Of a stretch of 64,000 nt of DNA, positions 59,376-64,000 are shown piece by piece (the stretch's first letter is position 1; every line of letters starts with the position of its first letter). This DNA comes from Deltaproteobacteria bacterium. GTDB lineage: Bacteria; UBA10199; JACPAL01; JAHFST01. Made by a program: the position numbers and the translations under genes. The stretch covers positions 1 to 64,000 of the forward strand of contig JAHFST010000013.1 in assembly GCA_023265625.1 (NCBI GenBank), in the 5' to 3' direction. The notes below the pieces were generated by a model. That model was given only the letters and a program-made list of their open reading frames with translations. It was not told where the DNA came from and made no database searches.

Positions 59376-60653
59376 TCAGCGGCGCGGGTCAGAGGTCAGA
59401 AATTCAATAATTTCATCCCGATGGGAGGCGGCATCATCGTAGCCTAATTCGAGGAGTTTATGGATATAGCTGGGCATGAACGCCAGGTAACTTAGGATGT
59501 CGACCCCGGCAGCCGGGTCAATATCGAGCAGGCGGAGCAGGAGTTTTTCAAAAACATTGAAGGAATTGTTGGACGATTTTTCGTCCTGATAACATTCCGA
59601 AAAGAGTCCGCTGACATCGCGCGAGGGGAACATCTTAAAAACCTCGATGCGGGAAAGACCACGATTGGCGATGTCACCTTTAATGCCCTCGCGGGTGAGC
59701 ATGGAATTAATTTTATCGAGATAATCGGCCCCGTAGACCTTTTCACTCCATTGGACGAGTCGATTAATGCGGGTCAGTTGATCGATGTCATATTGGATCC
59801 GGTCCAAAAACAGGGCGTTCATCACCAATCCGACCAATTGACCGAGGGTGGGATGTTGATTGGCCGGGGAGGAATACAATAGCTGCTCGCCCTGTTCATA
59901 GCGGTGATGCAACCCCAGGATCATGATTTTATCGGCGCCCAGCTGGATGGCTGGAGACATGGGCGTGTTGAGCTTCAACCCCCCATCGGTGTAATAAACA
60001 TTGTTGACCATGACCGGGGGAAAAATAATGGGGATGGCGGCCGAGGCGGCGGCGTGCATGGCGGTCAACTCCACGAAGCGATGCAGGTATTCTCCGGTGT
60101 ATTCCACGTCGGCCCGTTTTTGGACAAACAGCTCCATGTGACCCGTGGCCACGTTGGTGGCGGTCAACGAGACGGCGGCCAAGATTTTTTTCTTGAGGTT
60201 TTTTTCGATATTGTAAAAGGGCACCATGGATTCGATAAATGCCGGGAGCGGCGAGCTGTCTAAAAACCCCCGAAAATGGGCCTCGGCGGTCTTGCGCTGA
60301 GTTGGCTTGAAAGGATTTATTTTTAATAAATTGGAAGAAATGCCCTTGGTGGTGCGGCCGAGGAGCTCCCCCATGGCGGCCAGGTTTCTTTTGTAAATTT
60401 GGTCCTGTTTGAGATCCTTCCACAGCTTGTAGATCATTTTACCCTGGTCTTTAGGGCTATGGGCCAGGGCCGCCATCAGGCAGATGTTGATGGCCCCGAC
60501 GGAGGAACCACAGAGGACATCAAAGGTCCGTTCCCCGCCAAGCTTGGGGGCAATGGCGGTGCGGATGTAATGAATCACCCCCGCCTCGTAAGCGCCTCGA
60601 GCGCCGCCTCCGGAAAGGACTAGGGCTGTGCGATGTGGTCTTTTAGGTGCCAT
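59376..60653 (-). CDS. Patatin-like phospholipase
   Basis: 425 aa. Oxyanion motif SGGGARGAYEAGV, nucleophile elbow GSSVG with S51, and catalytic aspartate in YTDGGLKLN (DGG) make the patatin Ser-Asp dyad. The long helical C-terminal part resembles bacterial RssA/patatin proteins. Start ATG 60653. No signal peptide, so a cytosolic or membrane-associated lipase. A terminator-like hairpin lies just upstream and belongs to the next gene on the minus strand. Confidence 0.92.
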   Translation of the reverse strand: MAPKRPHRTALVLSGGGARGAYEAGVIHYIRTAIAPKLGGERTFDVLCGSSVGAINICLMAALAHSPKDQGKMIYKLWKDLKQDQIYKRNLAAMGELLGRTTKGISSNLLKINPFKPTQRKTAEAHFRGFLDSSPLPAFIESMVPFYNIEKNLKKKILAAVSLTATNVATGHMELFVQKRADVEYTGEYLHRFVELTAMHAAASAAIPIIFPPVMVNNVYYTDGGLKLNTPMSPAIQLGADKIMILGLHHRYEQGEQLLYSSPANQHPTLGQLVGLVMNALFLDRIQYDIDQLTRINRLVQWSEKVYGADYLDKINSMLTREGIKGDIANRGLSRIEVFKMFPSRDVSGLFSECYQDEKSSNNSFNVFEKLLLRLLDIDPAAGVDILSYLAFMPSYIHKLLELGYDDAASHRDEIIEFLTSDPRR

Positions 60654-60758: not shown

Positions 60759-61043
60759 TTACTTTACTTCTTTGACAGCCTCTTTGGCTTCCGCATGATG
60801 GGCGGCCCCTTTGGCTTCCGCCTTGACCGCATCCTTCGTGTCAGCCTTGGCTTCTGCTTTGGCATCCTTGGCAACAGCCTTGGCTTCTGCGTGGGTAGCC
60901 TCTTTGGCCTCTCCCTTGACCGCATCCTTGGCATCTGCCTTCACTTCGGCCTTAGCCGCTTCACCTACGGCATGCTCATTGGCATAAGCTGGCACGGCAA
61001 AAATCGCGGTAGCCAACAACATCATCATCATTTTTGACTTCAT
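60759..61043 (-). CDS. Secreted Lys/Ala/Glu-rich repeat protein
   Basis: 94 aa. Signal peptide MKSKMMMMLLATAIFAVPAYA, then a mature region built of imperfect AEAK/DAVK/KADAKD repeats with four histidines and no cysteine. Probably a long charged helix. Strong ribosome-binding site (aggaggaag). It lies next to and divergent from the bufferin-like operon, and its leader and start of mature part (ANE) resemble those of the precursor at 61758. A related function is possible but not shown. Confidence 0.75.
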   Translation of the reverse strand: MKSKMMMMLLATAIFAVPAYANEHAVGEAAKAEVKADAKDAVKGEAKEATHAEAKAVAKDAKAEAKADTKDAVKAEAKGAAHHAEAKEAVKEVK

Positions 61044-61206
61044 ACTTCCTCCTTTAAAAAAACGGTTGGTTAATGGAGCAACAAATCGGCCATGAATCAC
61101 CATAACTTTGGCGGATTGTCAAGCTTCCACAAAGAGCTTTCACAAAGAGCTTGAACTTCTGAGCCAAGTCCCCTAATTTAGCTCCTCTTCAAAAGTAGGG
61201 GGGGAT

Positions 61207-61692
61207 GTGACAAAGGTTATAAAATTATACGATAGCTTGGCTGATATTTTAAGTAAGGGGCAAGATTGGTTTTTGTTAGTCATTCGGCTTTATTGGGGCT
61301 GGCAATTTTTTCAGACGGGTAAGGGGAAGCTCGGTAACATTGCTCAGGTCACGGAATTTTTTCAAAGCCTCAACATCCCGCAACCAGCCTTGAATGCCTA
61401 TCTAGCGGGGATAACGGAATGTTTGGGAGGGCTATTCTTATTGCTTGGGTTGGGGGTTCGATTAGTCAACATTCCACTGATTTTTACGATGGTGGTCGCC
61501 TACTTGACCGCCCATCGCGATTCCCTCCAAACGCTTTTTTCAAATCCTGACGGTTTTTTTCAACAAGACCCGTTTCTCTTCCTTTTCACCGCAGTCATCG
61601 TTCTGTTGTTTGGACCCGGCAAATTTTCTCTGGAACAAGTGATGCGACGATATATAGGGGGAGAATGTTGTCGTCACGACGCTGAAATATGA
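61207..61692 (+). CDS. DoxX-family membrane protein
   Basis: 161 aa, four hydrophobic segments, with RLYWGWQFFQTGKGKLGN and AGITECLGGLFLLLGLGVRL of the DoxX family. DoxX proteins accompany many bufferin-type operons. GTG start after agggggg. 65 bp upstream of the precursor gene and on the same strand, so probably first in the operon. Confidence 0.88.
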   Translation: MTKVIKLYDSLADILSKGQDWFLLVIRLYWGWQFFQTGKGKLGNIAQVTEFFQSLNIPQPALNAYLAGITECLGGLFLLLGLGVRLVNIPLIFTMVVAYLTAHRDSLQTLFSNPDGFFQQDPFLFLFTAVIVLLFGPGKFSLEQVMRRYIGGECCRHDAEI

Positions 61693-61757
61693 AATTTATT
61701 CTATTGGGGTATCGGCCATGGGGGTTGGTACCCTGAGTAGATCAATGAGGAGGAAGA

Positions 61758-62033
61758 ATGAATAAGAAAGTCATGGGCGCGGTTGTCGCCACAGCAGTTG
61801 CCGCTCTGTTCCTAACCGGCCAGGTGCGAGCCAATGAAGACAGTGCCAAGCATGATGATGCCAAGAAAGAGGTGAAAAAGGCTGATCATGCCGCCGATAA
61901 GGACAGCTGCAAGGCCAAAGACAAGTGCAAGGGTAAAGATGGTTGCAAGGGCAAAGACAGTTGCAAGGCCAAGGATGAGTGCAAGGCCAAAGACAAGTGC
62001 AAAGGCAAAGATGGTTGCAAGGCCAAAGAGTAA
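61758..62033 (+). CDS. Bufferin-like precursor peptide with Cys-Lys-x-Lys-Asp-x hexapeptide repeats
   Basis: 91 aa. Cleavable signal peptide (MNKKVMGAVVATAVAALFLTGQVRA), an acidic-basic spacer, then seven hexapeptides of the form C-K-(A/G)-K-D-(K/G/S/E) from about residue 50. All seven cysteines are spaced by five residues. It is directly followed by a DUF692/MNIO enzyme gene. In characterised MNIO systems such enzymes modify cysteines of the precursor, and bufferins sequester copper. Strong ribosome-binding site (gaggaggaag). Expected periplasmic product. Confidence 0.88.
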   Translation: MNKKVMGAVVATAVAALFLTGQVRANEDSAKHDDAKKEVKKADHAADKDSCKAKDKCKGKDGCKGKDSCKAKDECKAKDKCKGKDGCKAKE

Positions 62034-62904
62034 TCGTCCCGAAGACCTGAATGTCTTCCCCTATTTGGGGGTTGGAGTCGGGTTAAGGACGGTTCACTAT
62101 CAAGACATTTTTGATCAGTGGCCGGCGATCGATTGGTTCGAGATCCTGTCAGAAAATTTCATGGTCTCGGGTGGTCGGCCGTTGTCAGTTTTGGATCGAG
62201 TTTGTGAGCGATACCCCGTGGTCATGCACGGGGTGTCGTTATCAATCGGCTCCACGGATCCGATTGATAAGGGCTATCTCAAGGCTCTCAAACGTTTGGA
62301 GCAACGGGTCAAACCCAAATGGATTTCCGATCATCTTTGCTGGACGGGCGTGGGAGGTCATAATGCCCACGACCTCTTGCCCCTGCCCTACACCGAAGAA
62401 ACCATCCGTCATGTGGTGCGACGGGTGCGTCAGGTGCAAGATTTTCTCGGTCGTCCGCTGGTCTTGGAAAATGTCTCGAGTTATCTGACCTACACCCAAT
62501 CCGCCATGTCAGAATGGGCATTTTTGGCGGCGATTGCCACCGAGGCGGATTGTAAGATTTTATTGGATCTCAATAATATTTATGTCAGCGCCTTTAATCA
62601 TCATTTTGACGCCATGGACTATGTGAATGGCATCCCCAGCGACCGAGTGGTGCAATTTCACCTGGCGGGGCATCGTGACAAGGGCGATTATCTTTTGGAT
62701 ACCCATGACCATCCGATCAAGCCCGCGGTGTGGTCGTTGTATCGGCAGGCCTTAAAGCGGTTTGGTGCGGTGTCTACCTTAATTGAATGGGATGATCACA
62801 TCCCGCCCCTCAAAAAAATGTTAACTTATGTCGAAAAAGCCAAAAAAATCTTCCAAGCTGGGGAAGACGCAACGGCTCCTATGGCGTTGCGTTACGGAAC
62901 CTAA
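62011..62904 (+). CDS. DUF692/MNIO enzyme (BufB-type)
   Basis: About 297 aa, TIM-barrel multinuclear non-heme iron oxidase. Family motifs: HGVSLSIG, SDHLCW, ENVSSYL, LDLNNIYVSAFNHH, FHLAGH, DTHDHP and EWDDHIPP, which hold the iron-binding His, Asp and Glu. Start is taken as ATG 62011, inside the end of the precursor gene; the open frame begins earlier but would be the precursor region read in another frame. Predicted to oxidise precursor cysteines. Confidence 0.9.
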   Translation: MVARPKSNRPEDLNVFPYLGVGVGLRTVHYQDIFDQWPAIDWFEILSENFMVSGGRPLSVLDRVCERYPVVMHGVSLSIGSTDPIDKGYLKALKRLEQRVKPKWISDHLCWTGVGGHNAHDLLPLPYTEETIRHVVRRVRQVQDFLGRPLVLENVSSYLTYTQSAMSEWAFLAAIATEADCKILLDLNNIYVSAFNHHFDAMDYVNGIPSDRVVQFHLAGHRDKGDYLLDTHDHPIKPAVWSLYRQALKRFGAVSTLIEWDDHIPPLKKMLTYVEKAKKIFQAGEDATAPMALRYGT

Positions 62905-63625
62905 CAAAAACCGATTGGTAAAGCCCCCGGTCTGCGGTGATCGCCGGGTTTCGGCTCGCGCCCGGGTCGGCATTTATGCGGACATGTATTTTTATCGGAT
63001 TGCCGATAGCCTCAAAGAAGATTTTCCATCCTTGGAAAAATTATTGGGGGAGGAGCCCTTTTATCAATTAATCAGGTCCTACCTATCGCGTTATCCCTCT
63101 GTCCATTGGTCGCTGCGGGACGCGGGGAAATCCCTCCCGCATTTTTTGCAGGGCCACGCGGTGCAAAGGCGTTGGCCCTTTCTGGCGGAATTGGCGCGTT
63201 TTGAGTGGGAGTTGTTGGACCTCTTTGATGTGGCCGATGCGGTCCCCTTGTCCAAAGACCGCTTGGCGGCTATCCCCGCTGAGCAGTGGGAGTCTATCCC
63301 GCTCTCGTTGGTTCCGGGGTGTCGTCTTTTCCAAAGCCCTTGGCCGCTGGATCAGATCCGGCAGGCCATTGTGCGCAACCAGACCAACAAACATTGGCAA
63401 CGTTGCACCACATACCTCCAGATTTGGCGGCAGGATTTCAAGGTTTATTACGCGACACTGCAAGCCATGGAATATCAATTGTTACGCACGGTGCTTCGTG
63501 GCACTAACTTTGGTCAGGTGTGTGAGCGCGTGGCGGTTCAGCTGGGAGTGGAAGAGGCCCCCCTGGTTGCGGCGCAGCAGCTAAAATGTTGGTTGAATCA
63601 GGATATCTTGCGAGGTGATGTATGA
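62828..63625 (+). CDS. DUF2063-family partner protein (BufC-type)
   Basis: 265 aa. The core RARVGIYADMYFYRIADSLKEDFPSLEKLLGEEPFYQLIRSYLSRYPS is the DUF2063 signature, followed by LAELARFEWELLDLFD. Such proteins bind the MNIO enzyme and deliver the precursor. The ATG lies 77 bp inside the MNIO gene. Its TGA overlaps the next ATG (ATGA). The first 25 residues are Lys-rich and may be an extended start. Confidence 0.9.
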   Translation: MSKKPKKSSKLGKTQRLLWRCVTEPNKNRLVKPPVCGDRRVSARARVGIYADMYFYRIADSLKEDFPSLEKLLGEEPFYQLIRSYLSRYPSVHWSLRDAGKSLPHFLQGHAVQRRWPFLAELARFEWELLDLFDVADAVPLSKDRLAAIPAEQWESIPLSLVPGCRLFQSPWPLDQIRQAIVRNQTNKHWQRCTTYLQIWRQDFKVYYATLQAMEYQLLRTVLRGTNFGQVCERVAVQLGVEEAPLVAAQQLKCWLNQDILRGDV

Positions 63626-64000
63626 AATCGATCTTGTTCGTTTGTGTCGGCAACGCCTGCCGCAGCCAGATGTCGGAAGGTTTTGCCCGGGCCATGGGTC
63701 CGAAGGATTTGGTAGTCTACAGTGCCGGATCCCACCCGGCGGGTTTTGTGGCCCGGGAGGCGATCGTGGCCATGCAGGGAAAAGGGATTGATATTTCCGA
63801 ACACTATTCCAAGGGCCTGAGTGAGATTCCGGCCATCTCCTTTGATTACTTAATTACCATGGGCTGCGGCGATGCCTGCCCGCTGATTCCCGCCAAACAT
63901 CGCCTCGATTGGAAAATCCCCGATCCCATCGGCCGCGGGCGGGAGTACTTCAACCAGGTGAGGGATGACCTAGAACGCCGGATCCGGGAACTGATCGAAT
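63622..64000 (+). CDS. Low-molecular-weight phosphatase/arsenate reductase-like protein (partial)
   Basis: Cut by the window end; 126 residues visible. The P-loop VCVGNACRSQMSEG (C-x5-R-S) is followed by a second cysteine pair in MGCGDACP and DWKIPDPIGRG, the layout of thioredoxin-linked ArsC enzymes. It overlaps the DUF2063 gene stop by 4 bp, tying it to the bufferin operon. A role in metal or metalloid stress fits the context. Confidence 0.9.
   Translation, partial: MKSILFVCVGNACRSQMSEGFARAMGPKDLVVYSAGSHPAGFVAREAIVAMQGKGIDISEHYSKGLSEIPAISFDYLITMGCGDACPLIPAKHRLDWKIPDPIGRGREYFNQVRDDLERRIRELIE

Follow-up and report, generated by a model that had tools for sequence, protein, structure and literature searches.

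Gene content and layout of the operon

The window, the whole stretch of 64,000 nucleotides that was analysed, carries near its 3′ end five genes on the plus strand, encoding a DoxX-family membrane protein, a precursor peptide, an MNIO (DUF692) enzyme, a DUF2063 protein and an ArsC/LMW-phosphatase-like protein (Table 1). Presence and order of these genes agree with the initial annotation, which had placed all five in one overlapping row. The overlaps hold from the precursor through the ArsC-like gene (precursor/MNIO 23 bases, MNIO/DUF2063 77 bases, DUF2063/ArsC 4 bases); DoxX stands apart, separated from the precursor gene by 65 bases. The ArsC-like gene runs 14 bases past the window, to C3:64014, and its end was taken from the adjoining sequence of the contig. 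The succession of precursor, MNIO and DUF2063 partner is the gene order of bufferin operons, MNIO-PME1 systems of the captophorin class.

Table 1. Features of the operon in the window.
Feature	Coordinates	Strand	Basis
DoxX-family membrane protein, HvfX-like	61207..61692	+	GTG start; Pfam DoxX 81.2 bits (cut-off 23.6)
Precursor peptide, 91 aa, probably Buf2-derived	61758..62033	+	NCBIfam BufA2 score, operon position
Putative Sec signal peptide, residues 1-25, MNKKVMGAVVATAVAALFLTGQVRA	61758..61832	+	alignable with leaders of canonical Buf2 relatives
Seven C-K-[GA]-K-[DE]-x units, Cys every six residues	61908..62030	+	read from translation and DNA repeats
MNIO (DUF692) bufferin maturase, BufB, predicted Cys-Lys type	62011..62904	+	NCBIfam, Pfam, EWDDH
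DUF2063 partner protein (PME1/BufC-like)	62828..63625	+	Pfam DUF2063 57.5 bits (cut-off 27.2)
ArsC/LMW-phosphatase-like protein, 130 aa	63622..64014 (C3)	+	Pfam LMWPc 93.1 bits

With the NCBIfam models, the DoxX protein scored 76.8 bits for HvfX, below the cut-off of 80, and the DUF2063 protein 79.4 bits for HvfC against a cut-off of 142. A PDB search with the DUF2063 protein gave no match.

Three further loci lie around the operon. A divergent gene (60759-61103, minus strand), which shares its upstream region with DoxX, encodes a small secreted protein of 114 aa that is rich in Ala, Lys and Glu, contains AKAEAKAD-type repeats, has no Cys and showed no convincing family match. At 59376-60653 on the minus strand a patatin-like phospholipase is encoded (Pfam 97.2 bits), which is weakly similar to CBASS and anti-phage phospholipases. 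Just past the window and directly 3′ of ArsC are Bro-N antirepressor-like and DUF4172-Fic genes (L002:8210-10256), possibly mobile or defence-linked.

The precursor array and the MNIO enzyme

The cysteines of the precursor are located at residues 51, 57, 63, 69, 75, 81 and 87, each spacing being exactly six. When the mature region was shuffled, such a spacing occurred in 0 of 200,000 cases. Seven hexapeptides with Cys at every sixth residue were thus found as initially annotated, while the motif given there, C-K-x-K-D-x, had to be mended to C-K-[GA]-K-[DE]-x. At the DNA level the array is an 18/36-base tandem array spanning 61908-62029, in which units encoding the identical peptide differ synonymously. 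The signal-peptide cleavage site was placed by eye, and the Sec assignment is based on the alignment of the leader with those of relatives.

The precursor scored 19.8 bits with NCBIfam BufA2 (E 7e-4, cut-off 60) and thereby stays below the threshold of this model. Nor does it show the pattern of Buf2 precursors, six or twelve conserved Cys with, in the relatives analysed, a spacing of 6-6-7-6-13/14, with which its six-residue steps agree partially. As the score lies below the BufA2 cut-off, what ties it to Buf2 is its place in the operon, a similar leader and the Cys spacing.

The MNIO reached 379.6 bits with NCBIfam MNIO_BufB (NF050167, cut-off 310), which places it in the bufferin-maturase subfamily, and 368.6 bits with Pfam PF05114; its score with the HvfB model, 267.6 bits against a cut-off of 360, is well under its bufferin-maturase score. 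MNIO-PME1 substrates have been split into DUF2282, Lys-Cys (EGKCG) and Cys-Lys groups, the latter being already a named group of precursors (PMC13097082). In FonB, the specificity sites are Arg15/Arg16 and Phe250, and Cys-Lys enzymes have Asp in place of Phe250 (PMC13097082). The window MNIO has Arg-Thr (GLRT) and Asp (EWDDH, after the catalytic Asp) at these sites; as judged from the alignment, its residues match Cys-Lys enzymes. With Asp at the FonB-Phe250 site and seven CK motifs in the precursor, the operon falls into the Cys-Lys captophorin group. Residues N175, D242 and H244 are essential in HvfB (PMC13419390), and the Asn and Asp-x-His aligned to them are conserved in the window MNIO, with the numbering transferred by inference via 3bww.

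Among the nine MNIOs beside canonical Buf2 precursors in the class, DD is found at the Asp site in seven and DE in the other two. In the class's other MNIO clade the catalytic Asp is followed by H, N or A, and GLRR is the rule, with GLRK and GLRT once each; most of these enzymes stand beside precursors of the KKC-repeat type. In other phyla, MNIOs that accompany arrays carry D, E, A or G directly behind the catalytic Asp, a variation that counts against the explanation that we favour below.

The precursors of class relatives with the second MNIO clade (L014-L020) are long and in most cases contain KKCSGD- or EKKCGA-type repeats; some also have Cys at every sixth residue, L019 is nearly free of Cys, and no NCBIfam precursor model matched the one that was scored. 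In the same-order relative G001, an MNIO of this other clade (GLRR, ERDANIP) adjoins a precursor whose five-residue Cys-Lys repeats read CKDKS/T (L021:363-821), so that motif order and enzyme clade do not correspond there.

The initial annotation had set the array against EGKCG-type precursors as a different core. The window precursor is without EGKCG, and Lys follows all seven Cys and precedes only two of the seven. EGKCG/oxazolin/fontiphorin (HvfA, FonA) operons resemble the window in combining MNIO, DUF2063 and DoxX with a multi-Cys repeat-array precursor, but their precursors have Lys before Cys in a five-residue repeat, whereas in the window Cys precedes Lys in a repeat of six; their MNIOs carry Arg-Arg and Phe at the specificity sites instead of Arg-Thr and Asp. 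Motif order and enzyme residues rule out this assignment, and the proper comparison is Buf2, whose Cys spacing is already six; the reading as a different core is not supported.

Buf2 precursors and the distribution of hexapeptide arrays

Nine class relatives have a canonical BufA2 precursor in the same operon position, four of them scored directly and all nine above the BufA2 cut-off. Their Cys spacing is 6-6-7-6-13/14, in one case with two further steps of six. This relative, G010, is an intermediate (6-6-7-6-6-6-13), in which the canonical frame holds two additional hexapeptides. Since the spacing 6-6-7-6-13/14 recurs in BufA2 proteins from other lineages as well, the six-residue step belongs to Buf2. 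In some Verrucomicrobiota proteins an array is fused to a Buf2-like CKGKNxCKGKGGC core. The window precursor has a leader similar to those of the class relatives and retains the six-residue step, with repeats only. Compared at the sequence level, its array is the Buf2 spacing in an apparently regularised and lengthened form.

Buf2 operons (Buf_6/12Cys; BufA2B2C2) are like the window in the set and order of DoxX, precursor, MNIO and DUF2063 genes, the BufB-level MNIO, the Cys-Lys specificity residue, the six-residue Cys spacing and the signal peptide. The window differs in its seven uniform C-K-x-K-D-x repeats, which lack both the 7-residue break and the C-terminal Cys, in a precursor score under the BufA2 cut-off, and in the added ArsC-like gene. 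In the same-order relative G003, a MerT mercuric-transport-like gene (L025:11105-11449) lies 3′ of a canonical Buf2 operon. MerC-bufferin fusions have been published, and this arrangement echoes them.

To find arrays elsewhere, 84,980 species genomes were scanned with a degenerate DNA pattern that matches two units in a row. The pattern selects arrays and is blind to neighbours, so the scan is a fair test of the association between array and MNIO. It yielded 85 stretches, in which 41 further genes have adjacent in-frame CK[GAS]K[DE]x units; this rules out the array as a unique core. An MNIO gene was found near 35 of the 41, mostly just downstream on the same strand; for the remaining six, only 2 to 1,124 bases of downstream sequence were covered. 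The initial annotation had proposed such a search and regarded common occurrence of the repeat with non-MNIO neighbours as evidence against its reading; the neighbours found support it. The array genes span seven or more phyla, with lineages from Verrucomicrobiota (most), Acidobacteriota, Ignavibacteriota, Bacteroidota, Myxococcota, Bdellovibrionota and Pseudomonadota. The arrays beside MNIOs in Opitutaceae, Akkermansiaceae, Acidobacteriota, Ignavibacteriota and others share hexapeptide (CK[GA]K[DE]x) and neighbours with the window, but their MNIOs fall into separate clades, ArsC is absent, and the arrays frequently come in separate blocks or share the protein with a Buf2-like core. With BufA2, all eight array proteins scored from other phyla stayed below 60, at 12.9 to 40.6 bits. 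A literature search on the motif text, run outside the supplementary tables of PMC12452194 and PMC13097082, returned nothing relevant.

Proposed function, origin of the array and the ArsC-like gene

Considering the observed gene content, enzyme subfamily, Cys spacing and recurrence of arrays beside MNIOs, this is very probably a Buf2-type (Cys-Lys) bufferin operon, whose array precursor would be modified by the MNIO and DUF2063 proteins and bind copper after export. The initial call of a bufferin operon is borne out by an MNIO above the BufB cut-off, the gene order and the Cys-Lys residue, and the proximity of arrays elsewhere to MNIO genes supports the array protein as a likely MNIO substrate. 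Though its precursor departs from the Buf2 profile and spacing, the operon probably works like a Buf2 bufferin. The MNIO, aided by its DUF2063 partner, most likely oxidises the repeat Cys to thiooxazoles before Sec export, and the exported peptide would act as a multivalent sponge for periplasmic copper(I). A more general proposal is that CKxKDx arrays are a recurrent, convergent polymeric form of Buf2, processively modified by Cys-Lys MNIOs into a multi-site sponge and here extended by ArsC to the handling of arsenic or oxidised thiols; we consider it unlikely in this form.

The array protein might instead be an unmodified Cys/Lys-rich metal-binder, a metallothionein-like sponge, with the MNIO acting on another target. 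Its distance from the BufA2 profile would fit, and thiols by themselves bind Cu(I) and Zn(II). Antoine et al. also pointed to the possibility that not every MNIO-linked precursor is modified (PMC12452194). Against this, arrays in many phyla lie nearly always just upstream of an MNIO gene, the window MNIO retains the Cys-Lys specificity residue, and the array occupies the exact position of the canonical substrates, so that an unmodified sponge appears quite improbable.

In this lineage the array probably originated by tandem duplication of a hexapeptide of the canonical six-Cys Buf2 core, which would thereby have been replaced or overgrown. The duplication would have produced seven near-identical sites, and the 7-residue break would have gone, as would the C-terminal Cys tail. 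The maximum-likelihood tree places the window MNIO among canonical-Buf2 enzymes of its class (95/84). Constraining all array enzymes and the window to one clade was rejected (p-AU 0.0017), while a clade of the window and the nine canonical class enzymes was not (p-AU 0.24). On the simplest reading, a Buf2 precursor gave rise to the array here, independently of the arrays elsewhere. Very similar arrays are present in Verrucomicrobiota, and a ready-made array-type operon might have been received horizontally from there or from another array-bearing phylum. However, the position of the window MNIO among own-class canonical Buf2 enzymes rather than array enzymes, the rejected single clade and a leader resembling those of class-mates make such a transfer very improbable; transfer of the precursor gene alone is conceivable. 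As a single genome of this family is in the sample, the replacement step is seen once.

The ArsC-like protein has its best matches among true arsenate reductases; the closest solved structure is the arsenate reductase 3t38 (E 1.8e-25). It shares the P-loop CVGNACRS and the motif TMGCGDxCP with this C. glutamicum enzyme and LMW-PTP-type arsenate reductases, but lies outside any ars operon: no ArsR or arsenite pump accompanies ArsC in the row, and neither ACR3 nor ArsB gave a match in the window's genome (assembly 95.6% complete). An ArsC homologue was found neither near the 41 other array loci nor at the bufferin loci of the nine class-mates. Within the order, the relatives closest to the window's ArsC stand among unrelated genes, in G003 about 40 kb from the MNIO, and an ArsR-ArsC-transporter arrangement was seen, by ORF reading, only in the distant genome G057. 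A literature search on DUF692 together with arsenate reductase gave one paper, on Caulobacter copper stress. The 4-base overlap with the DUF2063 gene suggests coupled translation, and the association of ArsC with a bufferin operon is seen once. Only in this lineage does the ArsC-like gene appear to have become the 3′-terminal gene of the operon, and any link to the peptide is hypothetical. The initial annotation took this gene as a hint of metalloid as well as copper handling; since the link is not conserved and ArsB and ACR3 are not detectable, the arsenic idea is unsupported, and an arsenic module is ruled out as the main reading. A combined copper and arsenic module, in which ArsC reduces arsenate and a thiol/thiooxazole peptide traps arsenite, could draw on the gene overlap, the enzyme's similarity to true reductases with its retained motif and the need for a trap in place of a pump, but is highly improbable given the absence of ArsC from the other array and class-mate loci, the location of its nearest relatives elsewhere and the arsenite export that extracytoplasmic trapping would additionally require.

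The array style recurs beside MNIO genes in several phyla, and an ArsC-like gene adjoins it only here. Because the eight scored array proteins lie below the BufA2 cut-off, the model misses a wide group of likely MNIO substrates. With such near-uniform repeats as substrates, it would be easy to measure how processive and how site-specific Cys-Lys MNIOs are, and the operon places compact six-Cys Buf2 bufferins on a continuum with open-ended repeat arrays.
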